Shown here: one piece after another, positions 8,254 through 14,208 of the stretch | How the letters are laid out: every line of letters starts with the position of its first letter | Numbering within the stretch: the first letter of the stretch is position 1 | DNA from: Planctomycetota bacterium | Lineage (GTDB): Bacteria; Planctomycetota; B129-G9 | Assembly (NCBI GenBank): GCA_003644325.1 | Contig: QNCA01000003.1 | Span: 1 to 15,066, forward strand | Length of the DNA stretch: 15,066 nt | Direction of reading: 5' to 3' | Translations under genes and position numbers: made by a program | The notes under the pieces: model-generated | Seen by the model: the letters and a program-made list of their open reading frames with translations, nothing else | Databases searched by the model: none | What the model was told of the DNA's origin: nothing

Positions 8254-8315
8254 GCCCGCATTTCTCGCCACGCACCGTCGTTTTTACTCAAGTTGACTGA
8301 GTTTTTGTTAACCTC

Positions 8316-8374
8316 GGTGACTGTCACCAATCTACGAGCCGGTCCCCCTGATAAATCAGGGGGTCTGCGCTCCG
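8316..8374 (-). repeat. GGTGACNGTCACC element, copy A (one end lost)
   Basis: Read on the plus strand: terminal palindrome GGTGACTGTCACC (8316-8328), an arm ATCTACGAGCCGG, hairpin CCCCCTGAT/ATCAGGGGG (8344-8352, 8355-8363) and the inner arm CTGCGCTCCG. It is the reverse orientation of copies B and C. The second terminal palindrome is missing; similarity stops at about 8374. Confidence 0.75.
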
Positions 8375-8381
8375 CCCGTTC

Positions 8382-8404
8382 CGGGTCCTCGCCCCGAGGA
8401 CCCG
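8382..8404. repeat. Perfect 10-bp GC hairpin inside the repeat block
   Basis: Arms CGGGTCCTCG (8382-8391) and CGAGGACCCG (8395-8404) with a CCC loop. It lies about 60 bp downstream of the uvrC stop on the minus strand. No T-run follows on either strand, so it is a poor intrinsic terminator; it may be part of the compound element or slow exonucleases at the uvrC mRNA 3' end. Confidence 0.5.
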
Positions 8405-8422
8405 TCAGGGTCCGAATGGGTA

Positions 8423-8465
8423 CGGGTCGCTCGCGCCATTTACCCCCAAACTTTATGCGCACCCC
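8423..8465. repeat. 43-bp dispersed repeat, copy 2
   Basis: Aligns with 121-163 in the same orientation (CGCTCGCGC, CCCCCAAACTTTA, GCGCACCC). Its right edge meets the uvrC stop codon (complement of 8465-8467), so the repeat abuts the gene end exactly. Confidence 0.6.
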
Positions 8466-10369
8466 TAGGGTTTCAGGCGTTCGAGGATTGTGCGGGCGAG
8501 TCCGGCGCTGATGCCGGGGACGGATGCGAGTTCATCAACGGTTGCCCTTGATATGCGTTCGACGCTGCCGAATCTCTTCAGCAGGGCGACGCGGCGGGCC
8601 GGGCCTATGCCCGGTATCTCGTCAAGCACGGTGGTGAATTTTTTCTTCCTGCGCAGTTTCTTGTGGTATTCGACGGCGAAGCGGTGTGCTTCGTCCCTGA
8701 CGCGCTGCATGAGAAAGAGTTCGGGGGAGTCCTTCCGAAAGGTCACGGGATTGGAGCGGCCGGGGATATAAAAGATATCCATCTCCTTGCTTTTTCTGCC
8801 AGTGGTTTGGTCGCGCACTTTTGCTATCGCGGCGACGTCGAGGTCGCTTATGCCGAGGTCTCTGAGGACGGCACGCGCCACGTTCAATTGCCCCTTGCCG
8901 CCGTCAACGAGCAGCAGGTCGGGCACGGGCCACCGGTCCTTGAGGACGTCCTCCTTTGAACCTTCCCCTGCGCGCGAGCGCCGCAAGCGCCTGCCGATGA
9001 CTTCCTTCATCATGGCGTAGTCGTCGGAGCCGGCGACCGTCTTTACCCGGAAGCGCCGGTATTCCGCTTTCGCCGGTTTGCCGTCGATTGCGACGACCAT
9101 TGAGCCGACGGCCTCCGTGCCGCCGATGTTCGATATGTCGCAGCACTCGATGCGGCGCGGGTAGTTTCGGAGGCGGAGTTTGGACTGGATGGATTCCAGG
9201 AGGCTGCGCGTGCGTTCCTCCTCGCTGTGTTTTTCCTTGAAGACGACCTCGGCGTTGCGCGCGGCTATCCGCACCAGTTGCTCTTTCTCGCCGCGCAGGG
9301 GGACGGTTATCGTCACCTTCCCGCCTTTTCTCTCGGTCAACACGCTCTCCAGGCTGTCCCTTCCCTCGAAGTCCCTCGGCACCAGGATCTCGGGCGGGAC
9401 GGCGGCATCCTCGCGCTCGTAATATCGGAACAGGAACGAGGCGAGGACCTCCTCGGAGGAGAAGTCGTACGCCTGTCCGGGGAAACTCTTCCCCGCCAGG
9501 AGCATGCCGTTTCTCACGGGCAGTTGCTGGAACATTATCTCGGCGCCGTGGCGGTAGTAGCCGAAGATGTCGCGGTCAACGGGGGAGTGCTTGACCATCT
9601 TCTGCTTTTCCAGCGTCCGGCGGAGGGCGCGGATTCGGTCACGCAGGACCGCGGCCTGCTCGAACTGTTCCTCTCCGGCGAGTTTCTGCATTTCTTTTTC
9701 CAGTTGCGCCACGACATTGTCCGCCCTTCCCCCGAGTATGTCGATGACCTGGCGGACCATGTCCATGTACGTTCGGCGGTCCACAAGGGCACAACAGGGG
9801 GCGAGGCACTGTTTTATGCCGTGGTACAGGCAGGGGCGCGTGCGATTGCGGAAGTTGCCGTCGCTGCACTTGCGCAAGGGAAACAGGCGGTTGAGCAGTC
9901 TTACCGTCCGGCGGCAGGCATCCGCCGACGAATATGGGCCGAAGTACTTGCCGGAGCCTTTCGGCGGCATCTTGCGTACCCTGATTATCCTCAGGCGCGG
10001 CCATTCTTCGCCGGGGTCGATGTGGACGCTAAGGTAGGTCTTGTCGTCCTTGAGCCGTACGTTGTAAATCGGCTTGTATTTCTTGATGAGGACGTTTTCC
10101 AGCAGGAGCGCCTCTTTTTCGGAGTCCGTGACTATGAACTCGATGTCCTCGACGTTTCGGCGTATGAATTCACAAGCGGTCCTGCCGTCTCCCGATTTGG
10201 TGAAATAGGTGCGCACGCGGTTCCTGAGGTTTGAGGACATTCCTACATATACGACCGTTGCGGGGCCTTCGCGGCGGACACGAGCCTTCATCAGGTAAAC
10301 CCCCGGCGATGCGGGCGCCTGGTCGACTATCCGCCGGATATTGGTTGAGATGTGTCCTTCCCGGGTCAT
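8465..10369 (-). CDS. uvrC: UvrABC excinuclease subunit C
   Basis: UvrC makes both incisions flanking DNA lesions in nucleotide excision repair after UvrB loading. The 634-residue protein has the GIY-YIG 3' nuclease domain (about 18-100: SPGVYLMK, VVYVGMSSNLRNRVR), a four-cysteine cluster C168-C180-C188-C192 whose 12/8/4 spacing equals that of the E. coli UvrC iron-sulfur site, a UVR helix pair that binds UvrB (about 217-255, EEQFEQAAVLRDRIR), the RNase H-like 5' nuclease domain with likely catalytic residues D411 (ECCDISN), D449/D450, D489 (LLVDGGKGQ) and H562 (RDEAHRFAV), and two HhH motifs (582-634). No Shine-Dalgarno precedes the ATG, in line with a very short leader. The stop codon touches a repeat. 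uvrA is not in the window. Confidence 0.97.
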   Translation of the reverse strand: MTREGHISTNIRRIVDQAPASPGVYLMKARVRREGPATVVYVGMSSNLRNRVRTYFTKSGDGRTACEFIRRNVEDIEFIVTDSEKEALLLENVLIKKYKPIYNVRLKDDKTYLSVHIDPGEEWPRLRIIRVRKMPPKGSGKYFGPYSSADACRRTVRLLNRLFPLRKCSDGNFRNRTRPCLYHGIKQCLAPCCALVDRRTYMDMVRQVIDILGGRADNVVAQLEKEMQKLAGEEQFEQAAVLRDRIRALRRTLEKQKMVKHSPVDRDIFGYYRHGAEIMFQQLPVRNGMLLAGKSFPGQAYDFSSEEVLASFLFRYYEREDAAVPPEILVPRDFEGRDSLESVLTERKGGKVTITVPLRGEKEQLVRIAARNAEVVFKEKHSEEERTRSLLESIQSKLRLRNYPRRIECCDISNIGGTEAVGSMVVAIDGKPAKAEYRRFRVKTVAGSDDYAMMKEVIGRRLRRSRAGEGSKEDVLKDRWPVPDLLLVDGGKGQLNVARAVLRDLGISDLDVAAIAKVRDQTTGRKSKEMDIFYIPGRSNPVTFRKDSPELFLMQRVRDEAHRFAVEYHKKLRRKKKFTTVLDEIPGIGPARRVALLKRFGSVERISRATVDELASVPGISAGLARTILERLKP

Positions 10370-10379
10370 AGGATGATAT

Positions 10380-10408
10380 ATTTTATCAAAGAAGGGGCCG
10401 CGAGAGAA
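10380..10408 (-). promoter_or_regulatory. Candidate uvrC promoter
   Basis: On the minus strand a -10 TAAAAT (complement of 10380-10385) ends 10 nt before the uvrC ATG, and a weak -35 TTCTCT (complement of 10403-10408) is 17 bp further up. The leader would be only about 3-4 nt. AT-rich tracts at 10429-10466 could act as an UP element for this promoter or the divergent gene. Confidence 0.4.
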
Positions 10409-10592
10409 GTTTCGGATTAGTTTGTTGCTTTTTCGGGCGAAAAAATTTCAGTTTTTCAGAAAATTTAGCGAGCCTTTGGGGGCTTCCGGCGTGTCTATAA
10501 ATAGGGAAGGATATTATAGTTTAGAGGTCTGCAAAGACATCCGGGCCTCCTCTTGGCGCTAATTGTATCACTAATCAGCGGAGCATGTTAGG

Positions 10593-11963
10593 ATGCTTAA
10601 AAGAACAGGAAGAACGCGAATTGGCCTGCTTGTCTGCGCAGCCTTGATCGCGTGGTCGACTGCCGAGGCGGCCGAATTCCGCGTGAACGGTTCCACTTTA
10701 CTGCCATGCAGCAACGCCACTGTCGGCATGGACCGGCTCGGAAATTTCGTTGTGGCATGGGAATACCAGACCAACATCGGCATCCAGCGCTTCGGCCTGG
10801 ACGGTACGCGCCAGGGCGCTGAAGAAGTATGGTTAGGGCAGGACAGCCCCAAATTCAGGCCCTCCGTGGCCCGGAACGCTTCCGGCAACTACATCGTAAG
10901 TTGGAAGGAAAGGACAACCGAGGACGCGGTTTGGGTGCAACTGTTCGACCACATGGGCAACCCCCTGCATTCCGCCACCCCGGTGAGCAGTTCTCTGGAG
11001 GATTGTGACCCATACCACCATTCGATAATCGCGCCCCAGGGTAACTTTGCGGTCACCTGGACACAGTGGAACGAACCATCCTCCAACTTCGTTTATGTTC
11101 GCCGTTATGATTCCGGCGGCGGTGAGATAACACCGGACCTCGTGGTCAGCGTCGGGTTTAACTCGGTCGGCGCATACGACTCGCACGGCAATCTCATGCT
11201 GGCCTGGACCAGCGGGGACATACCGGGCGGTCTGGATGTCTATCTCCGAGGCTACAACGCCGACGGCACGCCTCTCGGAGAGCCGCGCCGGGTGGGAGCA
11301 GGCGGGCAGGGACGCTACCTCCCTTCGGTCGCCTCCAACGGCGAGATGTTTATGGCCGCATGGGTAGAGGAAAACTCCGACGGCAACGGGACGGGCATAT
11401 ACGCCCGCCGGTTTGACGAGACGGGCAAACCCATCGGCCACAAGTTCCTGGTAAATACCACCATCTACGGCGACCAGCTTTTCCCCCGGGTCGCATCATC
11501 CCCGACAGGTCAGGGCGACTTTCTGATAACCTGGCAGGGCCCCCGGGGAGCGGGTTGTGAAGACATCCAGGTATTCGCACGCAGATTTGACGCCGCCGGT
11601 TATCCCATAGACGATGAAATACCGGTCTCCGAGTCCGGGACCGACATATGGCCCACCCCCGCCGCCGCCATGGACGATTCGGGTAACTTCGTTATCGTCT
11701 GGGAGGCCCTCGATCACCCCGGAGGAGAATCCGGCGAGACTGTCAACATCTACGCGAAGAGATATGATTATGCCGGTGAAGAATTGGACGACGAACCGTT
11801 TACCGCAAAAGTTCCCGAACCTCTGACGATTATCCTGCTCGTACCCGGTCTGGCCGCCCTCGCCCTGGCGAAGAGAAAACACCGCCGCACAAGCGACGGT
11901 GACCGTCACCATTACGGAGCGCAGCCCCCCCGACCTGTCGGGGGGCCGGCTCGTAGATGGTGA
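10593..11963 (+). CDS. Secreted seven-repeat beta-propeller-like PEP-CTERM protein
   Basis: A 456-residue exported protein with a signal peptide (cut near residue 26-27, TAEA/AEF) and seven similar units of about 48-57 residues. Each unit has a Gly-Asn/Asp turn, a F-V-V-x-W strand and an I-Y-A-R-R-F-D-x-x-G strand; the key Trp residues are 56, 104, 156, 205, 257, 314 and 370. Seven such blades fit a closed beta-propeller, probably a binding or structural surface protein. VPEP (407-410), a hydrophobic segment and KRKHRR (427-432) form a PEP-CTERM exosortase signal. Residues 436-456 are encoded by the GGTGACNGTCACC element, which also supplies the TGA stop, so the original C-terminus was probably nearer residue 433-436. 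GGAG lies 9 nt before ATG 10593. Its upstream region is shared with divergent uvrC. Ligand unknown. Confidence 0.75.
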   Translation: MLKRTGRTRIGLLVCAALIAWSTAEAAEFRVNGSTLLPCSNATVGMDRLGNFVVAWEYQTNIGIQRFGLDGTRQGAEEVWLGQDSPKFRPSVARNASGNYIVSWKERTTEDAVWVQLFDHMGNPLHSATPVSSSLEDCDPYHHSIIAPQGNFAVTWTQWNEPSSNFVYVRRYDSGGGEITPDLVVSVGFNSVGAYDSHGNLMLAWTSGDIPGGLDVYLRGYNADGTPLGEPRRVGAGGQGRYLPSVASNGEMFMAAWVEENSDGNGTGIYARRFDETGKPIGHKFLVNTTIYGDQLFPRVASSPTGQGDFLITWQGPRGAGCEDIQVFARRFDAAGYPIDDEIPVSESGTDIWPTPAAAMDDSGNFVIVWEALDHPGGESGETVNIYAKRYDYAGEELDDEPFTAKVPEPLTIILLVPGLAALALAKRKHRRTSDGDRHHYGAQPPRPVGGPARRW

Positions 11964-11971
11964 CTGTCACC
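11898..11971 (+). repeat. GGTGACNGTCACC element, copy B (complete)
   Basis: A 74-bp unit bounded by GGTGACCGTCACC (11898-11910) and GGTGACTGTCACC (11959-11971). Inner arms TACGGAGC (11913-11920) and GCTCGTA (11949-11955) can pair with one bulge, and the centre is a CCCCCCGA/TCGGGGGG hairpin (11926-11933, 11938-11945). It covers the last 22 codons, stop included, of the PEP-CTERM gene and ends 45 bp from the uvrB stop, between two convergent genes, where it could also act as a transcription barrier. Confidence 0.85.
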
Positions 11972-11985
11972 CCGCGCCCGGACGG

Positions 11986-12008
11986 GCAGCGTCTGACCCC
12001 CTCGCTGC
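11986..12008. repeat. Short inverted repeat next to the uvrB stop
   Basis: GCAGCG (11986-11991) and CGCTGC (12003-12008) flank an 11-nt loop, 8 bp beyond the uvrB stop codon. No T-run follows on the minus strand, so a terminator role is only possible. Confidence 0.3.
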
Positions 12009-12015
12009 GCCGGTA

Positions 12016-14016
12016 CTATTTCCCCATGTATGACAACTCCCTCTCCTCCAGCGCCTTGATTTCGTCGCGTATCTCCGCGGCCAGTTCAAACTCCAGGTTG
12101 TCCGCCGCTTCCTTCATTTGCTTGCGAAGTTGCGCGATGCGTTTCGGTATGTCCTTGACGGCTTGATACTCGACGGTCTCTTCCGATGCCCTGGGCACCG
12201 TCACGTAGTCCGCCTCGTAGATGGAATCGAGGATGGAAACCATGTCTTTCCTCACGGTTTCCGGGGTGATGTTGTTTTTCCTGTTATACGCGGCCTGCTT
12301 CTTTCGCCTGCGATTGGTCTCCCCTATCGCCCGGCGCATCGATTCGGTCTCGTGGTCGGCGTACATGATCACGCGCCCGTCGATGTTTCGCGCGGCACGG
12401 CCGAATGTCTGAATCAGCGAACGCTCGCTCCGCAGAAAACCCTCCTTGTCCGCATCCAGTATCGCCACGAGAGAGACCTCCGGCAGGTCAAGCCCCTCGC
12501 GCAGCAGGTTTATCCCGATGAGTACGTCGAAATCACCCCGCCTGAGCGCCTGGAGTATCTCCATGCGCTCGATGGTATCTATGTCGCTGTGCAAATACTT
12601 CGTCCTTATGCCGAGTTCATGGTAGTACCCCGCCAGGTCTTCAGCCATGCGCTTGGTCAGGGTGGTCACGAGCACGCGGTCGCCTTTCTCCACGCGGGCG
12701 CGTATCTCTTCCAGCAGGTCGTCCACCTGGTTTCCCGCGGGCCTGACCGTCACGTCGGGATCTATGAGTCCCGTCGGGCGGATTATCTGCTCCACCACCG
12801 CGCCCTTTGATTTTTCCAGTTCATAATCGCCCGGTGTCGCCGACACATATACCACCTGGCCGGTGCGCCGGGCGAACTCCTCGAATCGCAGCGGGCGGTT
12901 GTCCAGGGCACTGGGCAGGCGGAAGCCGTACTCCACCAGTGTCTCCTTGCGCGAGCGGTCTCCGCGGTACATGCCGCCCAGTTGCGGCACGGTTATATGG
13001 CTCTCATCTATGAACAGCAGGTAATCGTCCGGGAAAAAATCCACCAGCGTGGGCGGCGGTTCGCCCGGCGCGCGGCCGTCCAGGTGACGCGAATAATTCT
13101 CTATCCCGGTGCAGTACCCCAACTGCTCCATCATCTCCAGGTCATACCGCGTCCGCTGCTCCAGCCTCTGTGCCTCCACAAACTTGCCCGCAGCCCGGAA
13201 CCACTCCACCCGCTCCTCCATCTCTTTCTCGATGTTCCTTATCGCCATTTCCATCTTTTCGCGGTCAGTCACGTAATGCGTCGCCGGGTATATCGCCGCC
13301 TTCTCCAGCGTTTCGATGTCCCGGCCGCGCAACGGGTCTATATGCGATATCTTCGTCACCTCGTCGCCCCACATCTCGACGCGCACGGCGCGGTCTTCCT
13401 CGTACACCGGGAAGATGTCCAGCACGTCGCCCCGCACGCGGAACGTCCCCCGGTGAAAGTCAATGTCGTTGCGCCGGTAGTGTATCTGGATGAGTTTCGA
13501 TAATATCGCCTCGCGACTTATCTCCTGGCCCTGGTGCAGGAGCAGCAGCATGTCGTGATATGCCTCGGGCGAGCCCAGGCCGTATATGCAGGAGACGCTC
13601 GCGACGATTATCACGTCGTTGCGCTCAAGCAGCGAGTAAGTCGCGGAGTGGCGCATCTTGTCGATGCGCTCGTTGATGGATGCGTCCTTCTCAATATACA
13701 GGTCGATGCGCGGTACGTAGGCCTCCGGCTGGTAGTAATCGTAATACGATACGAAATATTCCACCGCGTTCTCGGGAAAGAGTCCCCGGAACTCCGAGTA
13801 GAGTTGCGCGGCGAGCGTCTTGTTCGGCGCGATGACCAGCGTGGGACGATTGACGCGCGCGATCACGTTGGCCATCGTGAACGTCTTGCCGCTGCCGGTC
13901 ACGCCGAGCAGCGTCTGGTGCTCCAGACCCTTCTCAACGCCGTCGACCAGTTCTTTTATCGCCCGCGGCTGGTCGCCCTTCGGCTCGAAATTCGTCGTCA
14001 GTCTGAACTCCGCCAT
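12016..14016 (-). CDS. uvrB: UvrABC excinuclease subunit B
   Basis: UvrB is the DNA-damage verification helicase of nucleotide excision repair; it is loaded by UvrA and recruits UvrC. The 666-residue product has the family's normal length and all landmarks: Walker A GVTGSGKT (38-45), the damage-probing beta-hairpin region [21 protein letters not shown] (91-111), DESH box (337-340), VSATPGDYE (391-399), [13 protein letters not shown] (536-548) and a C-terminal UVR domain (623-660) that pairs with the UVR of UvrC. The N-terminus ([20 protein letters not shown]) aligns with known UvrB starts. The upstream GGTGG is 12 nt from the ATG, too far for ideal use. It converges with the PEP-CTERM gene and is divergent from the lipoprotein gene. 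Confidence 0.98.
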
Positions 14017-14022
14017 ATCGTC

Positions 14023-14051
14023 ATTTTACCACCTTTCAGAATGCGCGGCAA
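14023..14051 (-). promoter_or_regulatory. Candidate uvrB promoter, leaderless type
   Basis: On the minus strand -35 TTGCCG (complement of 14046-14051), a 17-bp spacer and -10 TAAAAT (complement of 14023-14028) lie only 6 nt before the ATG at 14016, so transcription should begin at or next to the start codon. A CCCCGG/CCGGGG hairpin (14054-14070) sits just upstream. No LexA-type box is recognisable. Confidence 0.55.
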
Positions 14052-14090
14052 CGCCCCGGGAATGCCGGGGAGCACGTAAAGGACCGCGCC

Positions 14091-14161
14091 GGTGATTGTC
14101 ACCACTACGGAGCCGTCCCCGATGTGTCGGGGGCGGATCATCGTAGATGGTGACTGTCACC
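14091..14161 (+). repeat. GGTGACNGTCACC element, copy C (complete)
   Basis: A 71-bp unit bounded by GGTGATTGTCACC (14091-14103) and GGTGACTGTCACC (14149-14161). It shares the left arm ACTACGGAGC with one change and the right 21 bases exactly with copy B. The centre is CCCCGA/TCGGGG around TGTG (14117-14132). It lies between the divergent uvrB and lipoprotein promoters, a position that argues against terminator being its main role. Confidence 0.85.
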
Positions 14162-14208
14162 GTGCCAAGCAGCCACCCAGGATCTGCATGCTCCCGGAAC
14201 GTCGCTGC

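Follow-up and report, generated by a model that had tools for sequence, protein, structure and literature searches.

Introduction

Small hairpin repeats have been linked to Y1 tyrosine transposases before. In the TIRtrons, whose enzymes are termed TIRYT, the Y1 gene is flanked by inverted repeats with the consensus GGGGWSAS, and these terminal inverted repeats (TIRs) may, in the account cited, form dimers or clusters and make up moderately abundant families (Di Nocera et al. 2013, PMC3733652). REPINs or bacterial interspersed mosaic elements (BIMEs), built from repetitive extragenic palindromic (REP) sequences, are described in the text cited as intergenic inverted doublets that form a hairpin, the single-copy REP-associated tyrosine transposase (RAYT) having its own repeat cluster alongside; insertions within or beside existing units gave rise to some REPIN clusters, and in the legend to Figure S11 of that paper a stable whole hairpin is set against a 'clover' form, the fold of the RAYT substrate being offered as a hypothesis (Bertels and Rainey 2011, PMC3116915). 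In A. variabilis and H. neapolitanus, REP dimers are described as lying within longer palindromes (PMC3733652). Here we analyse a 15,066-nucleotide stretch (the window) of the genome of an uncultured planctomycete (Planctomycetota), in which a 13-bp palindrome, GGTGACNGTCACC (hereafter P), recurs as the ends of short hairpin units. At a probability of roughly three in four, we take these units to be non-autonomous, RAYT-associated miniature elements of the REPIN/TIR-repeat kind, for which miniature inverted-repeat transposable elements (MITEs) serve as secondary vehicles.

Results

P is repeated hundreds of times in the source genome and bounds a defined unit

Within the window P is found exactly at 8316, 11898, 11959 and 14149 and with one mismatch at 14091, and the five dyads that a sequence-only reading of this DNA had listed are therefore all present. 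When up to two mismatches to P were allowed, the window gave 7 matches against 0.72 expected, a number reached by none of 200 shuffles. The assembly of the source genome (G000; 2,279,701 bases in 471 contigs, 79.7% complete) contains 466 exact sites, against about 0.24 expected from base composition, and so the repeat is far from being confined to a few copies. Among the 59 genomes searched, source included, 28 have P in at least one copy; outside G000 none has more than 10, a genome of the same genus (G001) having 9 and one of the same family (G002) having 2.

Counts of pairs, site-pair classes, location relative to open reading frames (ORFs), proximity to MITEs and copies of the MITE family M1 were made in a sample of 540,035 of the 2,279,701 bases, made up of 69 stretches, one of them the window. 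The sample holds 154 P sites when up to one mismatch is allowed, and these form 66 neighbouring pairs no more than 125 bp apart, and the commonest P-to-P spacing is 56 bp (21 of the 66 pairs). The usual unit reads P-A(A)TCTACGA...variable hairpin...CTCCGTAAT(T)-P, its ends carry GGTGACAG, a motif found likewise at the borders of the one Y1 transposase gene known in G000, and it forms a single hairpin of about 68-80 nt, usually about 70; a long subtype of about 115 nt has a second hairpin. From the foot upwards the stem consists of an outer GGKGAC/GTCMCC, an A·A mismatch, an inner GTCMCC/GGKGAC, a bulged C, TACG/CGTA and the variable hairpin. We also observed, at L016:5179-5295, tandem 52-bp repeats (GTAAGAAGATTCGCAGAACTTGTCCCGACCTGTCGGGAT) joined by P, that is, an unrelated body with the same ends.

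With ORFs and neighbouring genes taken from a simple longest-ORF caller rather than a gene finder, 129 of the 154 P sites lie outside ORFs of at least 100 aa, where just 10.8% of the DNA lies, and 10 of the 25 sites that are internal to an ORF are no more than 9 bp from its predicted start. The 94 sites with two neighbouring genes are between tandem genes in 60 cases, convergent in 22 and divergent in 12, whereas these arrangements account for 46%, 22% and 32% of intergenic bases, respectively.

The conserved structure is the whole hairpin

The two ends of a unit can be read in two ways, either as palindromes each in its own right or as the two strands of the foot of one long hairpin. The best-scoring G001 units read GGTGACAGTCCCC...GGGGACAGTCACC, in which each end is an imperfect palindrome while the two ends are complementary to one another. 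In a set of 58 distinct units (38 from G000, 20 from G001) the two readings differ in 16 of the 20 G001 units and 4 of the 38 G000 units, and in all 20 of these units it is the end-to-end pairing that wins, the single-end palindrome in none. At the variable outer positions of the G001 units, 105 of 120 end-to-end pairs are Watson-Crick (mean with shuffled partners 84.1; 0 of 5000 shuffles as high), and the corresponding figure for G000 is 176 of 192 (mean 166.7; 2 of 5000 as high).

We then aligned 52 distinct short units having GAC-N-GTC at both ends; unit C of the window (listed below), the long subtype and the units beside the RAYT gene were left out. It can be seen that for the whole hairpin 97.5% of cells are paired, with 45 double changes, and that none of 500 shuffles was as high on either measure. 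The single-end palindromes gave 89.0% paired cells, and here shuffles were as high in 34 of 500 cases for pairing, 470 of 500 for pairs with double changes and 20 of 500 for the covariation score; as all of these pairing and covariation shuffles ignore the relatedness of the units, the fractions are not to be read as probabilities. Palindrome pair 3/11 does not form in 17 of the 52 left ends and 17 of the 52 right ends, G000 and G001 pooled. Single ends are palindromic in most G000 cases and broken in most G001 units, and they do not hold to the palindrome that marks a REP. The A·A centre, on the other hand, is present in 20 of 20 G001 units and 25 of 32 G000 units, and when three G001 units and one G000 unit were folded as single-stranded DNA essentially the same hairpin was obtained (z -6.3 to -8.5). 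The suggestion in the sequence-only reading that the hairpin varies with its pairing kept is borne out, for example at column pair 38/53, which is CG in 12, UA in 7, AU in 1 and gapped in 2 of 22 sequences; its view of the 13-bp dyad as the conserved structural element is not. The single-palindrome model is rejected as an account of the conserved structure, given the end-to-end pairing, the A·A centre and the alignment statistics. We conclude that the conserved structure is the whole bulged hairpin of about 70 nt and that the 13-bp palindrome is a by-product of it.

A RAYT gene is flanked by paired copies of P

A search with PF01797 found one gene in G000 and three in G001. The G000 gene is:

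G000:C210:137-817 (= L108:137-817), minus strand: Y1 (HUH) transposase gene, RAYT, 226 aa, identified with PF01797

On one side of it lies P-AATTTATCTACCTC...-P, with a mismatch in one end, and on the other P-AATTTAAGTCTATC...-P, so that paired ends lie on both sides with one of the four mismatched; the last codons of the gene extend into P. The proposal that non-autonomous REP-like units are moved in trans by a Y1 enzyme is thus upheld as regards the existence of a P-flanked Y1 gene, and trans-mobilisation itself is inferred. A relative of this protein in G001, 58% identical, is flanked by GGGGACAGTCCCC. Of the two further PF01797 genes of G001, the one in L118 is accompanied by inverted repeats of its own that differ from these, and the one at L119:10033-11073 (G001:C261) encodes a second RAYT type with a DnaA-like C-terminus and has a perfect palindrome, CTACTGTCACCTAAAGGGGTCAGACCCCTTTAGGTGACAGTAG, on both sides.

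The G000 protein is predicted, from its sequence and a structural model, to be a RAYT with the TnpA-REP fold. The nearest solved structure by profile is the TnpA-REP entry 4er8 (E 1.4e-9), which is also the nearest by fold (E 1.4e-8) to the predicted RAYT model (predicted local distance difference test, pLDDT, 91); a single-sequence PDB search with the protein gave no match. The REP-associated family NF047646 scored 66.9 bits, below its cut-off of 80, and a scan restricted to NCBIfam returned only REP_Tyr_transpos and IS200, with no match for a C-terminal helix-turn-helix (HTH). H60/H62 (HUH), Y120 and N124 are invariant in 28 RAYT sequences, and from its spacing to N124 Y120 is the probable catalytic tyrosine.

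Two observations tie the ends of the units to such genes. The motif GGKGACAS adjoins 51 of 72 homologous RAYT genes from many phyla, and lies on both sides in 35, against 0 of 53 distant controls, within zones of up to 200 bp upstream and 260 bp downstream; the loci were the best 80 of 568 relatives, of which 8 with short flanks were dropped, and controls were available for 53. In addition, the third base of the unit half-ends is T in 112 of 128 and G in 6 in G000, and G in 42 of 80 and T in 37 of 80 in G001, where the units were detected with a model built mainly from G000 units and may be biased toward T ends. The ends of the G001 units have shifted toward those of its own RAYT, and the parallel is partial.

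The units are restricted to one genus and absent from syntenic places

A strict signature of the unit gave 74 and 77 matches on the two contig strands of G000 and 14 and 14 in G001. In the other 390 Planctomycetota genomes it matched once in each of 5, no more than a backward control pattern gave and apparently by chance. With at most 150 candidates per genome scored, the unit model gave 55 matches over both strands of G001, corresponding to about 40 distinct places, and none at E 0.001 in 19 more distant genomes; in G002 neither the model nor the strict signature matched. The unit family is therefore restricted to one genus among 392 Planctomycetota genomes, and it numbers well over 100 copies in G000. 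A paired pattern in 2 viral contigs had unrelated spacers and appeared to be coincidental, and spread by viruses was rejected.

The genes around the window copies are syntenic in G001 (uvrB is 85% identical), and all three units of the window are absent from the corresponding places (A, contig C275; B and C, contig C351). Copies are thus found at many loci, with places in a relative that lack them, rather than at a single conserved locus. Because the intergenic DNA has diverged, the exact insertion footprint in G001 is not recoverable, and inspection by eye of units B and C showed no target-site duplication at the ends of those two units.

The copies in the window

The units of the window and the remains of the larger repeats next to them are as follows.

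8287-8315, plus strand: right half of M1 (terminal repeat CTCAAGTTGACTGAGTTTTT followed by GTTAACCTC), abutting the P end of unit A; the terminal-repeat scan lists this site as 8287-8306
8316-8422, plus strand: unit A, long subtype, consisting of P-AATCTACGAGC, the hairpin CCCCCTGATAAATCAGGGGG, a second hairpin GGGTCCTCGCCCCGAGGACCC and GGGTA, with a decayed right P end
11898-11971, minus strand: unit B, complete short unit with ends 11898-11910 and 11959-11971, folding as a whole-unit hairpin (z -5.25)
14067-14090, plus strand: probable left part of M3, decayed (GGGGAGCACGTAAAGGACCGCGCC), recognised by eye against M3 copies; the scan at up to 4 mismatches missed it
14091-14161, minus strand: unit C, complete short unit with ends 14091-14103 (one mismatch) and 14149-14161, folding as a whole-unit hairpin (z -8.01)
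14162-14195, plus strand: probable right part of M3 (GTGCC...CCAGGATCTGCATGCTCCC), half-context class H3, as in M3 copies, by eye

Units B and C are complete, as had been proposed, each folding as a whole hairpin (the z values were computed with a few flanking bases added). Copy A, previously taken for a short unit without one end, is instead of the long subtype, an assignment made by comparison with L028:1941-2061, which also has the second hairpin. Unit B overlaps the 3' end of a PEP-CTERM gene (10593-11963) and supplies its last codons and stop (11898-11963). The orthologue in G001 ends differently (...LRSGRFGCKHH), and from this comparison unit B appears to have changed the C-terminus of the protein.

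The units also lie inside larger MITEs

Units occur within at least three other inverted-repeat MITE families, which we call M1, M2 and M3. The sequence-only reading had described the units themselves as MITE-like; true MITEs are indeed involved, but as separate outer elements that carry the units. M1 has the TIR CTCAAGTTGACTGASTTTTT, is 82-169 bp long and is present in 16 complete copies in the sample (for example L017:13331-13499), of which 11 have two P ends and 5 have one. Target duplications of 6-7 bp flank 12 of the 16, compared with a mean of 0.86 and a maximum of 7 for shuffled flanks. Its terminal repeat occurs 320 times in G000 and in neither G001 nor G002 at up to one mismatch, and 392, 7 and 0 times, respectively, at up to three; M1-like sites adjoin a unit in G001 in at least three cases (L114, L248 and L249), and the association of M1 with the unit may be older than the burst of P in G000. 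The spread of M1 accounts for much of that burst. An autonomous partner was sought as M1 TIR pairs separated by 400-4000 bp, and a single such pair, L108:2812-4245, came up.

M3 has the TIR GGGAGCATGTAAGAATC (copies at L154:1347-1426, L033:10-192 and L024:5753-5935), and probable duplications of 8-9 bp were seen by eye at 3 of 4 complete copies, one with a mismatch. M2 (CTGTATATTCAAAGG) has a bare P-like site in G000 L019 and carries units in G000 L032 and G001 L153, and M3 is likewise found with one P or with a unit. The flanks around the 154 P sites fall into 33 pair classes, unclustered sides included. Inspection by eye placed several M1 copies immediately next to P, within other units, at L023:1976, L033:4773, L024:9872 and L122:823. 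Target duplications such as TAGATTA lie next to GTGAC, as if the foot of the hairpin were a preferred M1 target.

Discussion

Weighing the explanations

We consider the units most likely to be small parasitic elements, which are in addition carried within larger mobile repeats. On this RAYT-associated reading the enzyme would bind the bulged hairpin in single-stranded DNA, for example on the lagging strand, and would cut and rejoin it, so that copies could spread between genes; at least three TIR-type MITEs would additionally have captured units in the G000 lineage and multiplied along with them. Several points weigh against it. No movement, excision intermediate or enzyme activity has been seen, and binding, cleavage and movement of the units by the RAYT are proposed from sequence. 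The units adjoining the RAYT gene are AT-rich with arms unlike those of the common GC-rich units, so that the ends are shared and the bodies are not, and in place of the A·A of the common units they show an A-T pair. Only 8 of 78 homologous RAYT genes have the full GAC-N-GTC core next to them, and T is retained at nearly half of the G001 half-ends, which makes the parallel with the RAYT only partial. The GTAG or GTRG tag of canonical REPs stands immediately 5' of the hairpin. In these units GTAG precedes P by 2-3 nt and does so at a single end (GTAGAT(T)), the other end having GTAA (GTAAT(T)); with this one-sided tag, and with single ends that are not kept palindromic, the unit is not a textbook REPIN. 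Since the assembly is 79.7% complete, a second Y1 gene may be missing from it. Template switching in a quasi-palindrome could give matched changes that owe nothing to selection, but one would expect it to erase the A·A mismatch. Finally, half of the P sites are near M1 TIRs, so that copy number alone is no proof of RAYT activity.

This last point opens the way to a distinctly unlikely account in which the units are passengers only, with no current link to the RAYT: they would have been caught in the DDE-type MITEs M1-M3, their copies and absences would reflect MITE transposition, and the ends of the RAYT gene would be ancestral. The complete M1 copies with their target duplications and the excess of M1 terminal repeats in G000 over its relatives are in keeping with it, as are the M1-like G001 sites beside a unit and the orientation of units within M1 and M3, which on inspection looks constant except for window copy A. 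Moreover, an M1 terminal repeat is no more than 150 bp away from 77 of the 154 P sites, M3 is near 26 (6 of them shared with M1) and M2 is near 2. However, 55 of the 154 are near none of the three families, G001 has some 40 unit places (from at most 150 candidates scored) but 7 M1-like sites, paired changes maintain the structure, mismatch included, and the unit ends of G001 have shifted in parallel with those of its RAYT. Unlikely too, if a real possibility, is that the P end is a docking or exchange point at which the RAYT swaps gene-less cassettes of about 56 bp (one P plus a body), P-bearing DDE-type MITEs being the vehicles. It is allowed by the one-P and two-P forms of M1, M2 and M3 and by the mosaics of P flanks; the 113-bp form of M1, with one P, differs from the 169-bp form, with P-unit-P, by exactly one P and a body. 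A weak M1-like half joined to bare P, with 4 mismatches, in G002 (L117:2408-2460, G002:C175) was counted as a further sign. A simpler explanation of the one-P and two-P forms is deletion between the 13-bp repeats.

Two functional accounts fare worse. That the hairpins are terminators or mRNA-stabilising structures kept for their action in transcripts is very unlikely: they are strong, and 60 of 94 sites fall between tandem genes, more than the 46% of intergenic bases found there would predict, but an Rfam search of the window matched no family, the two contig strands carry about equal numbers (74 and 77, by contig and not gene orientation) and the units are not conserved at the three orthologous loci examined. 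RNA-level roles may be secondary. The alternative offered by the sequence-only reading, that the dyad is bound by a regulator or nucleoid protein and has been selected at many loci, we regard as extremely unlikely. It would suit the strong two-fold symmetry and the intergenic position, yet most G001 units have lost the symmetry of their single ends but not the pairing between the two ends, which prevails in all 16 discordant units of G001 and all 4 of G000. Sites are scarce between divergent genes, where 12 of 94 fall although 32% of intergenic bases lie there, they are absent at syntenic G001 loci, and the signature is multi-copy in only 2 of 392 genomes; it accounts for less than the RAYT-associated reading does.

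Comparison with known systems

A literature search by palindrome sequence found no relevant published mention, and one on planctomycete REP sequences and tyrosine transposase found no additional report. The pair of genomes matters in that ends are broken while end-to-end pairing and the A·A are kept, which is natural evidence for a whole-hairpin RAYT substrate, and the G000 and G001 variants form a defined set of testable RAYT substrates. Since hairpin parasites can ride in other MITEs, RAYT activity need not be the only source of the burst of 466 against 9 sites, a comparison in which the G001 ends have in part changed their sequence.

Of the TIR repeats described in the cited text (PMC3733652), the consensus GGGGWSAS fits the G001 end GGGGACAG, and the G000 end GGTGACAG is off by one base. 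Unlike those repeats as described there, the units here amount to hundreds of sites, form a whole hairpin with an A·A backed by covariation, and are nested in MITEs. Subclass 2.1 TIRYT proteins are reported in the text cited to have a C-terminal HTH (PMC6006769), whereas the G000 RAYT has no HTH match in NCBIfam.

With REPINs as presented in the cited text (PMC3116915) the units share the intergenic inverted doublet that forms a hairpin and the presence of distinct repeats beside a single-copy RAYT; they differ in having GTAG at one end only and single ends that are not kept palindromic, and their covariation favours the whole hairpin over the 'clover' of that paper. The long bulged REPs of E. 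coli TnpA-REP group 2, in the part of the source cited (PMC8266576), have in common with them a long imperfect stem, a conserved mismatch and a homologous HUH protein. Here the repeat sequence differs, the G000 RAYT with its 226 residues exceeds the 4er8 chain (165) by about 60, and the likeness of the two proteins is one of profile and fold. As described for A. variabilis and H. neapolitanus, REP-type doublets are embedded in other palindromic repeats; compared with that description there are in our case at least three outer families, two with target duplications (counted for M1, by eye for M3), whose copies carry either one P or P-unit-P.

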